Positions 37,608-46,536 of a stretch of 64,000 nucleotides of DNA are shown in pieces. Numbering within the stretch: position 1 is the first letter of the stretch; every line of letters begins with the position of its first letter. Under the pieces are notes generated by a model. That model did not search any database, had not been told where the DNA came from, and worked only from the letters and a program-made list of their open reading frames with translations. This DNA is from Comamonadaceae bacterium. GTDB taxonomy: Bacteria; Pseudomonadota; Gammaproteobacteria; Burkholderiales; Burkholderiaceae_C. The position numbers and the translations under genes were made by a program. The stretch covers positions 62,001-126,000 of the forward strand of contig CANGIQ010000006.1 of the NCBI GenBank assembly GCA_947453965.1, given 5' to 3'.

Positions 37608-37654
37608 TTTAGAATTGAGCTTCGTTCTACTTTTGGGCTGTTGCCTTGTTGTCT

Positions 37655-38830
37655 ATGTTCGGACTCCGAACTTATTTCATTGCCTTGTTTTGTGCTGTGC
37701 TGTTGAGCGCATGTGGCGGCGGTGCATCTGGCGTCCCATCTGCAGGCTTGAGCCCTGCCGCTGCCTTGGGGCAGCTGATTTTTCATGATCCAGGACTGTC
37801 GGCATCTGGGCGCATGTCATGCGCCACATGCCATGACCCATCGATAGGCCACGCCTCGCCGTTCACCACGCCCGTGGCGTTGGGGGGCGTCAACCTTGAT
37901 CAGCCTGGACTGCGCAACCCACCCGCGATTCGGTATTTGAAATTCAATGGGGCATTCAAATTCGAGACGGATGGCACCCCCATGGGGGGCTTCTTCTGGG
38001 ATGGTCGCGTCAATTCGCTGGCCGCACAAGCCAAAGGCCCCTTGCTGAACACGGCTGAAATGGCCAATGCCAGTGTGGCCGATGTGATAGCCAAGCTGCA
38101 ATCGGCGAGCTACGCGAACCAATTCAAAAGCGTCTTTGGTGTGGATATTTTCAACAATCCCTCTGACGCATTTGACCGCATGGCCTATGCCTTGGAGCGC
38201 TATCAAATCGAAGACGCAGACTTCGCACCATTCAGCAGCAAGTTCGATGCGGTCAATGCAGGCAAAGCTTCTTTCACAGAAGAAGAAATCAAAGGACTGG
38301 CGTGGTTCAACCGAGCAGACAAAGGCAATTGCGCCGCATGCCATCCCAGCACCAAGCCAAGCAATGCCCCTGCTGCGCTGTTCACCGATTTCACCTATGA
38401 CAACTTAGGCCTGCCGCGCAATTCGAACATTGCAGCCAATGCCAACGTCAATTTTTTTGACAAAGGCTTGTGCGGTCCTGTGCGTCTTGATATGTCAGCA
38501 CGCACCGATTTGTGTGGTGCCTTCAAAGTGCCCAGCCTGCGCAATGTGGCCCTGCGCAAAAGGTTTTTTCACAACGGTCAATTTGGCTCTTTGCAAGACG
38601 TGGTGATGTTCTACGTCACGCGCGACACCAGCCCAAGCGTTTGGTACCCCTTGGATTTGCTGGGCAATCCACTGATTTACAACGATCTACCTGTGGCTCA
38701 ACAAGTCAACGTCAACGTGACTGAAGGGCCTTACAACCGCCTGTTCGGACAAACCCCCGCATTAACCAGCCAAGAAATCAGCGAGCTCATTGCATTTTTG
38801 CGAACGCTCAGTGATGGCTATATGAATTGA
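37655..38830 (+). CDS. Di-haem cytochrome c peroxidase/MauG-family lipoprotein
   Basis: A 391-aa lipoprotein: signal peptide with lipobox LLSAC near residue 20 at ATG 37655. It carries two haem c motifs, CATCH (first domain) and CAACH (second domain), and the FKVPSLRNVALRKRFFHNG segment conserved in MauG/CcpA proteins, where the distal haem ligand region lies. It probably reduces H2O2 or performs another two-haem oxidation in the periplasm. It is the first gene after the Fur-like site; a porin gene follows after 19 bases. Confidence 0.93.
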   Translation: MFGLRTYFIALFCAVLLSACGGGASGVPSAGLSPAAALGQLIFHDPGLSASGRMSCATCHDPSIGHASPFTTPVALGGVNLDQPGLRNPPAIRYLKFNGAFKFETDGTPMGGFFWDGRVNSLAAQAKGPLLNTAEMANASVADVIAKLQSASYANQFKSVFGVDIFNNPSDAFDRMAYALERYQIEDADFAPFSSKFDAVNAGKASFTEEEIKGLAWFNRADKGNCAACHPSTKPSNAPAALFTDFTYDNLGLPRNSNIAANANVNFFDKGLCGPVRLDMSARTDLCGAFKVPSLRNVALRKRFFHNGQFGSLQDVVMFYVTRDTSPSVWYPLDLLGNPLIYNDLPVAQQVNVNVTEGPYNRLFGQTPALTSQEISELIAFLRTLSDGYMN

Positions 38831-38849
38831 AACAAAGACGAGGTCAAAC

Positions 38850-40157
38850 ATGATCAAACACACGTGTATCGCCGCTGCTGTGCTGCTGGTGGCGCAGGCC
38901 AGTTATGGCCAAACCAACAGCGATGTCGCCGCCGAGATGAAACAGCTGCGCGACGAGTTGCGCCAACTTCGCTTGGAAATGCAAGCCCTCAAGTCGCAGC
39001 AAAGCGCAAAAGCAGAACCTGTGCCCGCTGCAGTTGTCCCGGCTTCTGTGAGTCCAGCGATGGTTTCTGCTGTTGCGCCTCCTGCAGCAACACAAGAAGC
39101 TGCGCCGAATGCTGTCAGTTTGTTTGGCTACGGTGAACTCAACATGACGCGTCCACGCCACAACGCAGCAGACGCGGTGGCAACCGCACGGCGCGGTGTA
39201 CTGGGCTTTGGTTATCGCTTCAATGACCGCACCCGTTTTGCGGCTGAGTTAGAAATTGAAAATGCGGTAGTGTCTGCGGGCGACCAAGGCGAAGTGGCTT
39301 TTGAGCAGTTGTATGTCGAGCACGACATCCATGAGCACTTGTCAGCCAAGATGGGTTTGTTCTTGTTGCCCATTGGCTATATGAACGAAACCCATGAACC
39401 CACCCGCTACATGGGCGTGCACAGAAATTTGGTGGAGACCGCCATCATCCCCTCCACTTGGCGAGAAATGGGGCTGGGGTTGCGTGGCACCAACGACAAC
39501 GGCCTGCGTTGGGACGCAGGTGTGGTGACCAGTTTTGACCTCACCAAGTGGCCCACAGAGAGCGCGCAAACCAAAGAGTCACCCCTGGGGGCTATTCACC
39601 AAGAAGGCCAATTGGCCAAAGCGGCGTCATTGGCTTACTACGGTGTGTTGAATTACGACGGGATTCCAGGCTTCAACATCGGTGGCAGCTTGTTTCAAGG
39701 GGGGATTGCGCAAAAACAAACCATCCCTTCGCCCAATGCCAGTGTCACATTGGCAGAAGTGCATACCAAATGGCAAGTTGGCGCTTGGGATTTGGCCGCC
39801 TTGGCGGCGCAAGGGCGCTTTCGTGATGTCGGTGCATTCAACGCTTCGGCCAACGGCCTGAACAACCCAGTGCCCGATCAGTTCCGCGGTTGGTATGCCC
39901 AAGCCGCTTACCGTCTGTGGCGTCAGGGCGATTACAGCCTGGTTCCTTTTGCACGTTACGAACGTGTGAACACAGCCTTGAGCTTCTCAGGCTTGCCTGT
40001 CGGTTTGGCGCCTGCGGTAGACCCCGATACCCGCGTGTGGACGATGGGTGCCAACTTTTACCTTCATCCCCAAGTGGTGTTGAAGTTCGATACGCAAAGG
40101 TACCTCAACAACAGCGCCTTTGACCGTCTCAACCTGGGCCTGGGCTTTCACTATTGA
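38850..40157 (+). CDS. Outer-membrane porin-like protein with N-terminal coiled coil
   Basis: A 435-aa protein: signal peptide (KHTCIAAAVLLVAQASYG), a coiled coil (EMKQLRDELRQLRLEMQALKSQ), an Ala/Pro/Val-rich linker, and a beta barrel beginning VSLFGYGELNM and ending with aromatic strands and a terminal tyrosine (LGLGFHY). The coiled coil plus barrel resembles DcaP/OprP-type porins that form trimers. The next gene begins one base after its stop, so it is part of the peroxidase-FMN operon. Confidence 0.82.
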   Translation: MIKHTCIAAAVLLVAQASYGQTNSDVAAEMKQLRDELRQLRLEMQALKSQQSAKAEPVPAAVVPASVSPAMVSAVAPPAATQEAAPNAVSLFGYGELNMTRPRHNAADAVATARRGVLGFGYRFNDRTRFAAELEIENAVVSAGDQGEVAFEQLYVEHDIHEHLSAKMGLFLLPIGYMNETHEPTRYMGVHRNLVETAIIPSTWREMGLGLRGTNDNGLRWDAGVVTSFDLTKWPTESAQTKESPLGAIHQEGQLAKAASLAYYGVLNYDGIPGFNIGGSLFQGGIAQKQTIPSPNASVTLAEVHTKWQVGAWDLAALAAQGRFRDVGAFNASANGLNNPVPDQFRGWYAQAAYRLWRQGDYSLVPFARYERVNTALSFSGLPVGLAPAVDPDTRVWTMGANFYLHPQVVLKFDTQRYLNNSAFDRLNLGLGFHY

Positions 40158-40158
40158 G

Positions 40159-40761
40159 ATGTCTATGAAATTTGCAAAGCCTTTCTCCAGTCCACCGTCA
40201 CGCCAACGGCGTCAATCGCTCCAAGCCTTGGGGGCGTTGGCGATGGGCATGACGTCCCTCATGGCCGAGTCGGTGTTTGCGGCCGTGTTCATGGACATCG
40301 AGCAAGCGCAAAAAGTTTTGTGTCCATCGGCCGATGGATTTGAGCTCATGCCTTTGTCATGGGACGACAACCAACTCGCTACCTTGGCCAAACTCAGCGA
40401 TACCCGTGTGCCGCGTCACTTCAACCCCAAATGTTGGCGCGCCATGGCCGGGGGCAGGGCGGTGGGATGGGTGCTCTCGGATCGGGTGGTGGGTAAATAC
40501 GATTTGATCGACTACGCGGCGGGTTTCGATGCCCAAGGCGTGGCGGTGGGCATCGAAATTTTGGCTTACCGTGAATCGCATGGCGCTGAGATTCGCCAGA
40601 CCGGGTGGCGCAAACAGTTTGTCGGTAAAAAGGGACCTGCCGCCATGCGTTTTCCCGATGACATTCGCAACATCTCAGGGGCGACCTTGTCTTGCCAGCA
40701 TGTGACCGAGGGCATGCAGCGCTTGAGCGCCATGGTGAGTCTGTTGACGGCGGGCAAGTGA
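40159..40761 (+). CDS. FMN-binding domain protein, exported
   Basis: A 200-aa protein. The N-terminus SRQRRQSLQALGALAMGM is a Tat-like or Sec signal ending near VFA. The C-terminal part has the flavinylation motif SGATLS (in DDIRNISGATLS), where ApbE attaches FMN to the threonine. The ApbE gene overlaps its stop by one base, which supports covalent flavinylation of this protein. ATG 40159 or 40165 are both possible starts. It is likely a periplasmic electron carrier. Confidence 0.85.
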   Translation: MSMKFAKPFSSPPSRQRRQSLQALGALAMGMTSLMAESVFAAVFMDIEQAQKVLCPSADGFELMPLSWDDNQLATLAKLSDTRVPRHFNPKCWRAMAGGRAVGWVLSDRVVGKYDLIDYAAGFDAQGVAVGIEILAYRESHGAEIRQTGWRKQFVGKKGPAAMRFPDDIRNISGATLSCQHVTEGMQRLSAMVSLLTAGK

Positions 40762-41597
40762 TGGTCGATCAAACGGTTCGTCGCGCGCGTCCCTTGCTTG
40801 GCACGGTGGTGTCGATTCATCTCAACGATGCGGCATTGACCCCTGCTCAGCGTGAAGCTGCATTCTCAGCGGCCTTTGATGGGGTGGCACACATCGGTCG
40901 CGTGATGAGCGCACATGCATCGGACTCCGACTTGGCGCGTTTGTCACAGGCCACCGCTGGTGCAGTGCTCACGCTGGACCCCCATACCGTGCATGTCTTG
41001 CAGGCGGCACAGTACTGGCAGCGTGTTTCCCACGGCGCGTTCAATCCGGGGTGGGCGGCCACGCGTTTGTCTGCGGCAGGGCAACGTCCGGGCTTGACGC
41101 GTCTGCACCCTGCAAGCGCGGGCTTGCACGCTTTGGAGGTGTTGTCTGACACCACGGTCAAACTCCAGCATGCGATCCAACTCGACCTCGGAGGCATCGC
41201 CAAGGGCTATGCGGTGGACTGCGCGATCACCAAGCTGCAACAGCACGGCGTGGTCCATGCGTTGGTCAACGCAGGGGGCGATATGCGCGCTATAGGCAGC
41301 ACCGTGTGGCCCGTGGATGTCAGGCATGCGCAACACCATGCGATGGATGTTCGCCTGCGAGGCTGCCCAAGCCTTCAACACCAAGCATTGGCCACCTCTG
41401 TCGCTGCCCCCATCAATCCAGAGTTTGTCCATGTGCGACGCTTTCCAAAGCAGCTTTGGCGCAGTGCCACCGTTCAAGCCCCCGATTGCATGACCGCCGA
41501 TGTCTTGACCAAATGGGCTTTGCAATCCACGGATTTGTGCCCTCAACTGCGCAGCGTATTGCGCGCCCACCAGGCGCGCATGTGGAGAAGTTCATGA
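40761..41597 (+). CDS. apbE: FAD:protein FMN transferase (ApbE)
   Basis: A 278-aa flavin transferase that attaches FMN to a threonine of its target. Family marks are RRARPLLGTVVSIHL, the QLDLGGIAKGYAVD segment, VNAGGDMRAIG and the late MTADVLTKWAL helix. Start ATG 40761 shares one base with the FMN-binding gene stop. No clear signal peptide is seen, whereas many ApbE proteins are lipoproteins, so its location needs care. It overlaps the next gene by 4 bases. Confidence 0.9.
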   Translation: MVDQTVRRARPLLGTVVSIHLNDAALTPAQREAAFSAAFDGVAHIGRVMSAHASDSDLARLSQATAGAVLTLDPHTVHVLQAAQYWQRVSHGAFNPGWAATRLSAAGQRPGLTRLHPASAGLHALEVLSDTTVKLQHAIQLDLGGIAKGYAVDCAITKLQQHGVVHALVNAGGDMRAIGSTVWPVDVRHAQHHAMDVRLRGCPSLQHQALATSVAAPINPEFVHVRRFPKQLWRSATVQAPDCMTADVLTKWALQSTDLCPQLRSVLRAHQARMWRSS

Positions 41598-42064: not shown

Positions 42065-42082
42065 AATGACAAAGATGTCATT
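42065..42082. promoter_or_regulatory. Inverted repeat AATGACA-N4-TGTCATT, candidate response-regulator site
   Basis: Perfect 7-bp arms with centre AAGA, 98 bases before the response regulator start. The same 6-bp arms with a 4-base centre recur upstream of the 44350 gene, which points to a shared regulator, most simply the response regulator itself. Confidence 0.65.
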
Positions 42083-42180
42083 TAAGGCAACTTGCAAAAC
42101 TGGGTAATCCCTCGACAATGAAACGAACAGGAATCACCCCATGACTCGCACGGTGCGGGTTGTCCGATGCGTCATACGCT

Positions 42181-42867
42181 ATGAAAATTCTATTGATTGA
42201 GGACGAGGCCAAGATTGCCGAATTTGTGATTAAAGGCTTGCAGCAAGCGGGCTATGAGGTCGATCACGTGGGCGATGGTGCGAGTGGCTTGGCCTTGATT
42301 TTGGAGGGGCAACACGATTTGGTCATTCTGGATGTGATGCTGCCCAAATTGAATGGTTTTGATCTGTTGCGCCAATTGCGCCAAGACGGCAACACCATGC
42401 CCGTGATCATTCTGAGTGCCAAGGTCGACTTGCCCGATCGTTTGCTCGGATTTGAAATTGGGGCAGACGACTATTTGCCCAAACCATTCTTTGTCGAAGA
42501 GTTGATTGCCCGCATTCGTGCCGTGATGAACCGCAAAGTGCCCGAGCAGGTCCAGCACATGAGCAGCCACCACCTGACACTGGATGTGGTGAACCGCAAG
42601 GCCCAATGGCATGAGGTGTCGGCCATTTTGAGCCAACGCGAATTCAGCTTGCTGGCTTATTTGATGCGCTCGCCCGGCCATATTTATTCGCGCCAGCAAA
42701 TTCTCAAACATGTGTGGGAAATCAACTTCGATCCCGAGACCAATGTGGTGGATGTGTGTGTGCGCCGCATCAAAAGAAAGCTTAGCCGTAACAGCAACGA
42801 ACATTCATCACCGATTGAATCCGTGCGAGGCGTAGGTTATCGCTTGAAAGTAGAAGACGCAGCATGA
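42181..42867 (+). CDS. OmpR/PhoB-family response regulator
   Basis: A 228-aa two-component regulator. Receiver domain at residues 1-115 with acidic pocket E7/D8, phosphorylation site D51 (VILDVMLPK) and the conserved KP pair (YLPKPFF). Winged-helix effector at about 130-225 (LSQREFSLLAYLMRSPGHIYSRQQIL, then NVVDVCVRRIKRKL and VRGVGYRL). ATG 42181 is preferred over an in-frame TTG at 42160. It overlaps the sensor gene by 4 bases. Confidence 0.96.
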   Translation: MKILLIEDEAKIAEFVIKGLQQAGYEVDHVGDGASGLALILEGQHDLVILDVMLPKLNGFDLLRQLRQDGNTMPVIILSAKVDLPDRLLGFEIGADDYLPKPFFVEELIARIRAVMNRKVPEQVQHMSSHHLTLDVVNRKAQWHEVSAILSQREFSLLAYLMRSPGHIYSRQQILKHVWEINFDPETNVVDVCVRRIKRKLSRNSNEHSSPIESVRGVGYRLKVEDAA

Positions 42868-44261
42868 AAAAGTCTTTCAAATTTCACGTTTTCATTCGCA
42901 TTTGTTTGGTCGCTTTCGGCATTATTTTTGCCAACCGTATGTTCGCGCAGTATTTTTTGGTCGACCAGCTACGCGACCGAACACACCAGGAGATGGGCAT
43001 TGGCTTGATCAACTGTCACACCCACGTGGGCCATCAGGTTGATTTTTTAAGTTGCTTCAATGCCCGTGAGAAAGGCAACATCACCAACAATGTCTCAGAT
43101 TTTTATGTGCTGTGCGACAAGCCTTCGTCCGTGGGGTTGCCGGACGCAGATCAAACCTGTTCAAATTTTCAAACCCAAACAGCTTTATGGGGCAAAGAAA
43201 AGAAGGAAGTCGCCGATCCCCGCATTGATTACGCCAACGGTGTCATCGATGGCGTGCGCTGGCAAGGCGTGCGGTTCAAAGCCAATCCACAGGGGCCACA
43301 AATTTGGCTGAAGGACGATCACATCGGCGATTTGACGTTGCAAATGTGGGCGCTGCGTGACCGTAACTTGATTTATGTCTTGCCTACCATCATCACCTTG
43401 CTGGCGGCCTTGATGTTCTACATCATCTACATCGCTTTGCGTCCTATTGCCATGCTGGAGCGCACGTTGGCGCAGTTGACTGCGCGTAATTTGGATCAAT
43501 CCACCCAGCTGGTGGCGCCTTTCAAAGAGTTTGAAAACGTCACGCAGGTGTTTGAAGACTTGCGTGTGCGGTTGAGCCAAAGCTTTACCAAAGCACGTCG
43601 CTTTGCTTCCGACGCCTCGCACGAACTGCGCACGCCGTTGACGATTTTGAGAGGCAATGCAGAGCAACTCATGGCTGATCTGCCAGTTGGTTCAGACGCC
43701 CAAGTGCGAATGCGTTCGATGAGTGATGAAATTGAACGTTTGATCGAAATCACTGAAAAATTATTGTTGCTCTCGCGTGCAGACGCCAACAGCATCGTCG
43801 AAGAGCTCAGCGATGTCCATGTCAGCCGTTTGCTAGAAGAGCTCATCAAAGACGCCTTGTCATTTCATTCCAAACTCAAAATTACCGGGGATATTCAACC
43901 GGGCATTGTGTGGCGCTGCGACAAAACCTTGGTGAATCAAATGATTCACAACCTCTATGTCAATGCCGTCAACTACAACTTGCCCAATGGCTGGATTCAC
44001 ATGGTGCTCAAACGCGTTGAAGGTGGGTTTGAATTGACGATAGAAAACCCCACGCCTGAAGCCCCCAGCGACTTGGCGGAACGCGCGTTTGATCGCTTCT
44101 ACCGGGGCGATGCATCCCATACCCGCCGGGTCGATGGCTTGGGCTTGGGGTTGAGCATTTGCCTAGAAATTGCCAAACTACATCACAGCACACTGAGCCT
44201 GGTGGTGACACCGCAACACACGGTGTTGGCCAAGCTTAAGGCCCCCTTTGAGCGCTTGTAA
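42864..44261 (+). CDS. Two-component sensor histidine kinase
   Basis: A 465-aa membrane sensor: helix 1 at about 10-28, a periplasmic domain of about 135 residues, helix 2 at about 171-193, a HAMP-like region, the dimerisation/phosphoacceptor motif SDASHELRTPLTIL with H253, and an ATPase domain with the N-box (NLYVNAVNYN) and GLGLGLSIC. The periplasmic domain has spaced Cys and His residues (INCHTHVGHQ, LSCF, VLCDKP, TCSNF) that might bind a metal or sense redox state. The ligand is unknown. Confidence 0.95.
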   Translation: MKKSFKFHVFIRICLVAFGIIFANRMFAQYFLVDQLRDRTHQEMGIGLINCHTHVGHQVDFLSCFNAREKGNITNNVSDFYVLCDKPSSVGLPDADQTCSNFQTQTALWGKEKKEVADPRIDYANGVIDGVRWQGVRFKANPQGPQIWLKDDHIGDLTLQMWALRDRNLIYVLPTIITLLAALMFYIIYIALRPIAMLERTLAQLTARNLDQSTQLVAPFKEFENVTQVFEDLRVRLSQSFTKARRFASDASHELRTPLTILRGNAEQLMADLPVGSDAQVRMRSMSDEIERLIEITEKLLLLSRADANSIVEELSDVHVSRLLEELIKDALSFHSKLKITGDIQPGIVWRCDKTLVNQMIHNLYVNAVNYNLPNGWIHMVLKRVEGGFELTIENPTPEAPSDLAERAFDRFYRGDASHTRRVDGLGLGLSICLEIAKLHHSTLSLVVTPQHTVLAKLKAPFERL

Positions 44262-44273
44262 GCCCTTCAAAAA

Positions 44274-44316
44274 ATGACATCTCTGTCATAGATGATGTCC
44301 ATGACGGAGATGTCAC
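44274..44316. promoter_or_regulatory. Repeated ATGACA-N4-TGTCAT sites upstream of the 728-aa gene
   Basis: A perfect repeat (arms ATGACA/TGTCAT, centre TCTC) lies at 44274-44289, and a degenerate copy (ATGACG-GAGA-TGTCAC) lies 27 bases later at 44301-44316, just before the 44350 start. The arms match those of the 42065-42082 repeat. Confidence 0.62.
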
Positions 44317-44349: not shown

Positions 44350-46536
44350 ATGCCCGCAGTCAGCCCGAAATTAGACCTGCTTGAAAACCTCAAAAGCGAC
44401 ATTGGAATCGCTGAAGAGGTGATTGATCAGGTCATTGAACTCACACCGCACCTGGCGTTGGCGGTGGCGCTGCTGTACATGATCGCCTCCGATGGTGAGA
44501 TTGAAGACCAAGAAAGCAGCCAGCTTCAATCGGTCTTGGGCGGTGACAAAGAGGTGCTGCGCTACGGCTTGGCTTATGTGCAATCGACCTCGATTGAACA
44601 ATTTTTGCAAGATGCCCCCGAGGTGCTGAGTCACAAGGACTGCTTGTGCATTTTGACGAATGTCTGTGACTCTTTGCTCTCGGATGGCCATGCCGATGAC
44701 GCTGAGCTGGCATTGTTCCAACGCATGGTCACCGCTTTGGGTTGGGCCGATCAGGCGTTTGATCCGTATTTCAAAACCATAGCGCTCAAAAACGACAAGA
44801 CGGTGTTGGGAGCCTACCCAGGGACCGCCGACGAAATTACAGCGCTCAGTCCGCACCATGCTTTAGCGATCGCCTTGTTGTACATGATGACGGCCGATGG
44901 CGCCATCGGTTCAGAAGAAATTGGCCAACTCGAGGCCGTGATTGGTGAATTCGAGGGACTGCAAAAGGCGGCGCTCAAATATGTGCGCAAAACCAAGGTC
45001 AAGCAGTTTTTAGATCAAGTGACCCCCTCACTGACGCCAGAGCAGCGGCTCTATATCTTGACCAATGTGTGTGATTCCATGCTGTCAGACGGCAATGTGG
45101 CCTTGTTAGAAAACAAGTTGTTCCAAACCATTTTGACGTCATTTGGTTACAACGAAACATCGTTTGAAACGTACTACCAAACGATTGAAATTAAAAACGT
45201 CAAACCATTTGATACCCGAGAGTTCAAGCCGAAGATCACTCACCATCGGCGCCGTGAAACCGATACAGAAGAGGGCATTCAGTTTGAAAAGAAACTGACG
45301 TCGACAGACAAGGGACATCAAGCGCCCGCCGATGCTTACAATGCGGCGATGGGGGTGCAAATTCAACGCACCATGCAAGACAACATTGAGCATGTGGCAG
45401 AAGACTTTGGAAGCAACGACAACATCATCCAGGTCGGGCACAACGCCACGGATGAATTGAACCTTCAAAAGCTCGCGCAAAGCTTGAGTGCGGACAACGT
45501 TCAGCAAATTGACGATGGCATCAGCGCTGCTGAAAACCGCCAAACCTTGCCGACCGATTCGGTGGACATCAACATCCAAACGTTGGCATTGACGCAGGTG
45601 ACGGTCAATCTTCAAACGATTGATGCGGATCGACCCGAAGACCAGAGCGAGGAGCTGTCTGTTGAAGTCAGGATGCAAACGCTGTATGAAGGCATTGACA
45701 GCTTGAACCAACGGTTGAATCGCTTTGAGCGCGAAAACAAAGATTTTCTAGATGCCATACGTGCGGAAATGTTGATTGATGTGCCAGGCGTTGTGGTTGA
45801 TGTTTCTCCCGAGGAGCAAGAGCTGCTCAGCATGGTGGATGACATGTTGCGTACCGATCATGTGGAACAGATCGCGCTGCCCGGTAGCAGCGATAACGTG
45901 CAACAAATACCGGTTCTTGCCGATACGGAGAATGTGCAACACATCCCAATCGCAGATGCCGGCGACAATATTCAAGACATTCCATTGACGCGCGACGTCG
46001 AGAACATTCAAACGATTGCACTGACATCGACAGAGCCCAATTACCAACGCATTCATTCAGATCGACATCTGAACGAGATCAGCTTCAAGGCCCCAATGGA
46101 GGCCGCGTTGCTGCAAACCGATCTGGCGGGTGCATCACCTATCGACTCTGTGCGTGGCGGTGATGGCGCGTATGCCGCTGCGAGGCTCTTAGAACCGGGA
46201 CAAACACAAGACAGCGCATCTGTGGTGACGCACGCTGCCATGCCACAAGCACGTCGTTTTTTGACTATGGGCCGTTATGCCCCCACGGGTTTGAATTGGT
46301 TCTATGCCCATGCCAAAGTGACGGTGGTTTTTATGTTGTGTGTGTTCGCGATGCCCATGGGCATGACCTTGCCCAGCAGTCGGATCACCTCGGGCTTTTT
46401 GATCACATTGGCTGCGCATTCGGAACATGCCAATTCTGCAAAGCAGGATGTGCCATTGGACGAGCATGTGGTGCAACAAAATATGGCAGAAGAGGTTGAG
46501 CAGACCTTTGATCAGGTCAGGCTCAAGCGCAACTAA
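44350..46536 (+). CDS. Uncharacterised protein: two TerB-like domains, 12-residue N-[IV]-Q repeats, C-terminal membrane segment
   Basis: A 728-aa protein I cannot assign to a known gene. Residues about 31-135 and 167-270 are similar to each other (LTPHLALAVALLYMIASDGEI and LSPHHALAIALLYMMTADGAI; both with ILTNVCDS.LSDG) and look like TerB-type helical domains with acidic patches. Residues 337-445 and 504-577 hold about 15 degenerate units with core N-[IV]-Q-x-[IL], mostly 12 residues apart (N516, N528, N540, N552, N564). A short coiled-coil-like stretch (445-475) separates the blocks. One hydrophobic segment is at about 656-674. No signal peptide is present. It follows the two-component genes, shares their operator motif, and overlaps hslR by 4 bases convergently. 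Confidence 0.85.
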   Translation: MPAVSPKLDLLENLKSDIGIAEEVIDQVIELTPHLALAVALLYMIASDGEIEDQESSQLQSVLGGDKEVLRYGLAYVQSTSIEQFLQDAPEVLSHKDCLCILTNVCDSLLSDGHADDAELALFQRMVTALGWADQAFDPYFKTIALKNDKTVLGAYPGTADEITALSPHHALAIALLYMMTADGAIGSEEIGQLEAVIGEFEGLQKAALKYVRKTKVKQFLDQVTPSLTPEQRLYILTNVCDSMLSDGNVALLENKLFQTILTSFGYNETSFETYYQTIEIKNVKPFDTREFKPKITHHRRRETDTEEGIQFEKKLTSTDKGHQAPADAYNAAMGVQIQRTMQDNIEHVAEDFGSNDNIIQVGHNATDELNLQKLAQSLSADNVQQIDDGISAAENRQTLPTDSVDINIQTLALTQVTVNLQTIDADRPEDQSEELSVEVRMQTLYEGIDSLNQRLNRFERENKDFLDAIRAEMLIDVPGVVVDVSPEEQELLSMVDDMLRTDHVEQIALPGSSDNVQQIPVLADTENVQHIPIADAGDNIQDIPLTRDVENIQTIALTSTEPNYQRIHSDRHLNEISFKAPMEAALLQTDLAGASPIDSVRGGDGAYAAARLLEPGQTQDSASVVTHAAMPQARRFLTMGRYAPTGLNWFYAHAKVTVVFMLCVFAMPMGMTLPSSRITSGFLITLAAHSEHANSAKQDVPLDEHVVQQNMAEEVEQTFDQVRLKRN

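Follow-up and report, generated by a model that had tools for sequence, protein, structure and literature searches.

What would a freshwater bacterium do with a protein that joins two TerB domains to a regular asparagine-glutamine repeat and a membrane segment, and whose gene lies directly behind a two-component system? The protein in question, F1 (728 aa), is encoded on the forward strand at 44350-46536 of the window, the 64,000-nucleotide stretch of Comamonadaceae DNA that we analyzed. The window belongs to a genus that includes Limnohabitans sp. Jir61, and 84 genomes of this genus formed the comparison set. Cultivated strains exist for Limnohabitans, a genus prominent in fresh waters (PMC3591437). 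We propose that F1 is a stress-induced, membrane-anchored tandem-TerB scaffold whose N-x-Q motifs recur in a putative soluble partner, F2, from a flagellar gene family, and we give this proposal an even chance of being correct. The layout of F1, the common repeat and the flagellar-family link were not found described in the literature searched, which was mostly open-access. Searches on TerB and Limnohabitans found nothing related, and those on the TerB domain and repeats found nothing. Among the matches listed for TerB, flagella and tellurite, none was relevant by title, and "12-residue repeat" did not occur among the literature matches listed.

The F1 reading frame was confirmed as real, with the layout given in a first-pass annotation of the window. 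TerB domain 1 (residues about 26-150; 44425-44799) and TerB domain 2 (residues about 165-287; 44842-45210) are followed by N-x-Q block 1 (45460-45642), with units at residues 371, 383, 396, 408 and 420, and by an inter-block segment that AlphaFold2 predicts as a helix (residues about 438-476; 45661-45777; VRMQTLYEGIDSLNQRLNRF at 440-459). N-x-Q block 2 (45895-46074) has units at residues 516, 528, 540, 552 and 564, spaced by exactly 12, and precedes a C-terminal transmembrane segment (residues 657-675; 46318-46374); all of these features lie on the forward strand. The ten units form two blocks of five, and their nine spacings comprise 12 seven times, 13 once and 96 once. The membrane anchor claimed earlier agrees with hydropathy and with an AlphaFold2 helix at residues 649-667. 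The tandem TerB assignment likewise held, as the two halves scored 29.1 and 24.9 bits against PF05099 (Pfam gathering cut-off 24.4), the whole protein scored 49.8 bits, and structure comparison placed the TerB helical fold in the N-terminal domains (TerB structures 2h5n and 2ou3). The best Foldseek match of F1 was the TerB-like 2h5n (E 0.11, probability 1.00); Foldseek alone gave nothing at E 0.001 or better for the F1 model, and the structure comparisons as a whole barely tested the repeat region. The acidic positions of the DGxxxxxE motif, putatively ligand-binding, are invariant or nearly so in both domains across 35 F1 proteins. F1 thus belongs with the TerB family by the score and fold of its N-terminal domains, but differs in its fusion of two such domains with the N-x-Q array, the inter-block helix and an anchor in the membrane. 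No described family with this layout emerged, as had been expected, from NCBIfam (no full-length match at E up to 1), PADLOC (none at 0.01) or a comparison of the F1 family profile with PDB sequences (none at 0.01). Pfam recognized no ter family among the 11 distinct neighboring window proteins scanned, although ter operon neighbors are not required of every TerB protein.

Both TerB domains and the array were read together in 41 of the 84 genomes, and diverged or partial relatives occur in at least four more (G020, G049, G058 and G068). A segment with a mean Kyte-Doolittle value of at least 1.27 after residue 300 is present in 31 of 36 F1 proteins; it is missing from those of L020, L021, L024, L027 and L032, the last two of which may be truncated where their contigs stop. 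A profile search of contigs with a single F1 protein returned zero relatives, and one with the F1 alignment returned 76 loci, which supplied only the locus names and the nine-locus operator count given below. Ten genomes of the genus also carry single-TerB proteins of 138-155 aa as separate frames (e.g. G032:C36, G041:C248 and G081:C55), which share 42-45% identity with the window's F1 over its first TerB part. A mobile or defence origin of F1 was considered and found to be unsupported, with no phage match and no PADLOC match. Five plasmid records match the TerB part only (within residues 5-285), and two weak PHROG matches also fall in the TerB part.

The repeat is held in common with a second protein family. 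F2 matches only the repeat part of F1, and genome searches placed its gene apart from that of F1. It has a conserved N-terminal part, an array that varies from 9 to 30 N-x-Q units among the 33 proteins listed, and a helix at its C-terminus; the copy in the window's own genome is G000:C31 (L104:7536-8999). A repeat HMM built from 169 three-unit F2 blocks matched 34 of 36 F1 proteins, 33 of which exceeded the best of 1,800 shuffles (9.3 bits), and it scored 37.2 bits on the whole of the window's F1. The F1 profile gave 48.9 bits on the own-genome F2, and the F2 profile gave 32.9 and 30.7 bits on the window's F1 gene. When 200 genomes of the family were sampled from 141 genera, the F2 profile matched three, all from the window's genus, and the F2 array appears to be confined to this genus as far as sampled. 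In six of eight loci with an unlinked F2 (L104, L034, L035, L041, L113 and L114), a tRNA-Leu(caa) gene lies just upstream, as if F2 had been inserted there.

The 12-residue period, noted earlier as a strict repeat in the window's protein, is retained in its homologues. The 36 F1 proteins contain 351 N-x-Q units, and among their 315 spacings 12 occurs 151 times, 13 eight times, 11 twice and 14 once, the commonest longer gaps being 24-26 (45) and 36-38 (15). In F2, 325 of 563 spacings are 12 and 135 are 13. Adjacent units are 20% identical over the ten positions other than N and Q, and their Asn codons differ with a frequency of 0.50 in F1 (expected 0.50) and 0.45 in F2 (expected 0.46), in a test whose units were chosen for having N-x-Q. 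The units are old, judging by their randomized Asn codons and divergent other positions; the randomized codons also argue against recent tandem duplication as the source of the regularity. A scan of the own genome for the N-[IV]-Q codon pattern was uninformative (279 and 276 matches vs 200 and 253 for the control).

Two structures had been suggested for the array, a regular beta-solenoid and a set of binding motifs displayed at the membrane. AlphaFold2 models of F1 (35 sequences) had mean pLDDT values of 41-58 over block 1, the first unit of which falls within the end of a predicted helix, and 31-40 over block 2, and the F2 array (24 sequences) lay mostly at 32-54. The solenoid was supported by neither prediction, both arrays being modeled without strands, and binding motifs at the membrane are the better fit to these unstructured arrays. 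Confident helices were predicted in the F1 linker (82-89 over 441-470) and at the F2 C-terminus (85-95 over 451-487). The modeling therefore favors disordered multivalent motifs rather than a monomeric solenoid. A related alternative, which we consider unlikely, is that the arrays become ordered only in oligomers, as a small beta-solenoid or as a ladder of Asn/Gln residues resembling amyloid, with F1 and F2 co-polymerizing as their 12-residue rungs stack like upon like. Asn/Gln positions at a fixed period also occur in CsgA-type and other Gln/Asn-ladder solenoids, from which the F1 array differs in its period of 12, its presumed cytoplasmic location and its lack of predicted strands. The ladder would explain why spacing is kept at 12-13 though the other positions have diverged, why the longer gaps cluster as they do, and why N, Q and the position-5 aliphatic residue are spaced as in a short strand, but the low-confidence, strandless models of both arrays and the frequent 13-residue steps of F2 count against it.

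The genes directly upstream suggest how F1 could be controlled. They encode an OmpR-family, CopR/CusR-like response regulator (42160-42867, forward strand; assigned by Pfam and NCBIfam) and a sensor histidine kinase (42864-44261, forward strand; Pfam HisKA and HATPase_c). Heavy-metal regulator and kinase models of NCBIfam fit the pair best, although both proteins fall below the subfamily cut-offs (regulator 215.7 bits, cut-off 279.2; kinase 166.9 bits, cut-off 292.55 for TIGR01386). The sequence reportedly bound by CopR and CusR is TGACA-N4-TGTCA (PMC12428095). A putative operator box upstream of the regulator gene (TGACAAAGATGTCA, 42067-42080) and box 1 upstream of F1 (TGACATCTCTGTCA, 44275-44288) fit this consensus exactly, and box 2, 27 bp after box 1 (TGACGGAGATGTCA, 44302-44315), reads TGACG-N4-TGTCA. 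The window contains five TGAC-N6-GTCA matches (1.25 expected; five were reached in one of 100 shuffles), one preceding the regulator gene and two preceding F1. Another, at 41147, falls within the ApbE gene. A scan for promoter and terminator consensus sequences gave matches no commoner than in shuffles. As RNA, the operator region (44274-44315) could also form a long hairpin (-33.2 kcal/mol, z -4.0), for which the palindromes alone may account.

These boxes track the kinase. Among the 34 F1 loci with at least 600 bases upstream, a TGAC-N6-GTCA box occurs no more than 200 bases upstream of F1 in 16 of 16 loci with this kinase and in 0 of 18 without it, a count that is uncorrected for phylogeny and leaves out L011 and L015, two loci that have less upstream sequence and that each carry boxes and the kinase end. 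ATGAC-N6-GTCAT stands ahead of the regulator gene and of F1 alike in all nine loci that show the two genes (L054-L061 and L065); in the aligned gap between kinase and F1 it is found in 9/9 loci, with a second TGAC-N6-GTCA in 8/9. Because the boxes precede both genes, track the kinase and fit the CopR/CusR consensus, the regulator most likely controls its own gene and F1 through these putative sites. The window-type regulator and kinase lie directly upstream of F1 in L054-L061 and L065, and at L062 the kinase alone is seen at a contig edge. A different regulator adjoins F1 in a distant clade (L066-L069 and L071-L073), together with a kinase in six of these seven loci; Pfam finds 7TMR-DISMED2 in the two kinases scanned, one of which groups with the remaining four. 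Two-component genes consequently adjoin F1 in two unlike forms, and neither type is seen at L063, L064 or L070. The upstream two-component genes that the first-pass annotation proposed to look for in homologues are kept, with common operators, in only part of them: the link is clade-specific, since 18 of the 34 loci lack this kinase and the boxes. The window's system resembles CopRS/CusRS in the TGACA-N4-TGTCA operator before the regulator gene and F1 and in its best NCBIfam models, and differs in falling under the subfamily cut-offs, in having a TerB protein as its putative target and in the lack of copper genes among the 11 neighboring window proteins scanned by Pfam.

It is also conceivable, though again doubtful, that F1 acts chiefly as an effector in metal or redox stress, with the TerB domains as its active part and the repeats as no more than a flexible spacer to the membrane. 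The CopR/CusR-type operators and kinase and the near-invariant acidic TerB positions would suit such a role, as would the genes for a di-haem (MauG-like) peroxidase, an FMN-binding protein and ApbE that lie upstream of the two-component genes in the window (37646-41597). The proteins encoded by these three genes have no match in 20 flanked F1 loci, however, and a fixed-period N-x-Q motif held in common with the unlinked F2 is unexpected for a mere spacer.

The scaffold that we prefer draws on the position of F2 relatives. The flagellar export operon itself contains the F2 gene in two loci (L122 and L123), where it is flanked on one side by a SPOR gene located after flhB and on the other by the gene for c37, a membrane coiled-coil protein; the L122 contig also encodes FliF, FliG, FliH, a T3SS-type ATPase and flagellin. 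These operon copies match unlinked F2 with 64.8 bits (L122) and 25.4 bits (L123). An open reading frame, X, fills the slot between SPOR and c37 in 26/26 loci with the slot in view, of which L246 stops inside the SPOR gene and L230 and L049 have flhB past the contig end. X is a full N-x-Q F2 in seven of the 26 (675-769 aa) and a shorter form in four (209-367 aa), in which an N-terminal motif and degenerate 12-mers are visible by eye and the motif HMM reached only E 0.007 to 0.13. In the other 15, including the window's own genome, X has 128-167 aa and no repeats; F2 of the own genome lies outside the flagellar operon. The C-terminus of X is the same kind of helix in 26/26 loci, by an expression that permitted small changes. 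An HMM of this helix finds the F1 linker (18.9 bits, E 3e-4 among 5,655 ORFs), and five of 36 F1 proteins score above the best shuffle (9.8 bits). This makes the helix moderately well supported as common to the F1 linker and the flagellar-locus X, although the likeness could be coiled-coil convergence. The second repeat family and its flagellar-operon connection had been overlooked by the first-pass annotation, the anatomical part of which stands and the solenoid part of which is unsupported.

The F1 gene does not itself belong to a flagellar locus, since none of ten flagellar reference proteins had an ORF match in the window or in 20 flanked F1 loci, each of 10-17 kb. A FliP match accompanies F1 in all 41 F1 genomes (partial in G082), and F1 is found in none of the seven FliP-less genomes (Fisher 0.012); in the near-complete genomes, all 24 with F1 have FliP and none of the three without FliP has F1 (Fisher 0.057). 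Four of the seven FliP-less genomes keep c37 (G014, G021, G048 and G071), two of them (G014 and G021) with a flagellin match, and FliP is therefore probably just absent from these assemblies. The indication that F1 depends on flagella is thus weak. One genome that is 96% complete (G069) has F2, with no match to FliP, flagellin or c37.

F1 occurs together with F2. Among 40 near-complete genomes of the genus, 24 have both, none has F1 alone, 11 have F2 alone (calls that rest on weak matches in G011 and G033) and five have neither, an association (Fisher 0.007) that is uncorrected for descent. Across all 84 genomes the corresponding numbers are 36, 5, 25 and 18 (Fisher 0.003, kinship ignored), and the five genomes with F1 alone (G013, G017, G070, G076 and G082) are 57-88% complete. 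That the two families acquired their repeat by exchange or convergence and have unrelated jobs, the flagellar link of F2 then being uninformative on F1, would fit the 11 near-complete genomes with F2 alone and the want of flagellar matches near F1, but it is very unlikely given that F1 is always accompanied by F2 in near-complete genomes (24/24) and that sampling across the family found the F2 array in this genus alone.

Taken as a scaffold, F1 would be a cytoplasmic protein of the Limnohabitans genus, anchored to the membrane at its C-terminus and, in the window's clade, switched on by the adjacent CopRS/CusRS-like system through the TGAC-N6-GTCA operators. Its mostly disordered N-x-Q blocks and inter-block helix may act as multivalent association modules. 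F2, a soluble protein with the same array and with family members encoded in the flagellar export operon of some genomes of the genus, would be gathered by F1 at the inner face of the membrane, along with partners of F2 and of the TerB domains. The gathering site is possibly near the flagellar pole, and the trigger may be an envelope signal or a metal/redox signal. A bolder version, which we consider decidedly unlikely, is that the N-x-Q dodecapeptide is a new, genus-specific association code and that a scaffold of F1 and operon-recruited F2 couples an envelope signal to the flagellar pole.

A working likeness is offered by the polar landmark protein HubP, which one publication describes as anchored in the membrane (PMC12918733). 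Its cytoplasmic part is long and unstructured and holds a variable number of imperfect repeats, and its clients include flagellar regulators. The membrane anchor and unstructured repeat part of F1 recall HubP/FimV polar landmarks in outline and in possible mode of action only; F1 differs in its N-x-Q repeat and in the C-terminal position of its anchor. Pfam at E up to 1 found TerB and three sub-threshold families in F1, with neither a LysM-like domain nor the C-terminal TPR domain of FimV, and F1 is therefore not a member of HubP/FimV.

A published description terms four Limnohabitans type strains non-motile (PMC3031073), which counts against the flagellar side of the proposal. If the bolder version above is true, an N-x-Q scaffold could help to hold flagella in check in a genus whose type strains are so termed. 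The two families offer a testable case in which a short repeat found in unlinked proteins may serve as an assembly code, and F1 is a TerB protein tied to one specific two-component switch.

The comparison also brought to light a module downstream of flhB, comprising the SPOR protein, the highly variable X and the membrane coiled-coil protein c37 (own-genome C2, L212:7769-11017; 25 homologous loci), a description of which was not found in the literature searched. A c37 match occurs in 78/84 genomes of the genus and in six of the 197 genomes sampled elsewhere in the family, where one match is weak. Of those six, four have an ORF in the X slot; the contig of G243 is too short, and G170, with the weak match, was left out. 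The X of G174 has, by eye, the N-terminal motif and repeats of about 13 residues. We do not claim homology of X across genera, because the motif HMM was not significant in G174 (6.2 bits, E 3) or G120 (5.0 bits, E 6.7). Flagellar genes are near universal in this genus, whose type strains are termed non-motile, with FliP in 77/84 and flagellin in 62/84 genomes. Frames with a flagellin N-terminus are sometimes very long, reaching 1432 aa in the own genome (L251:8739-13037).
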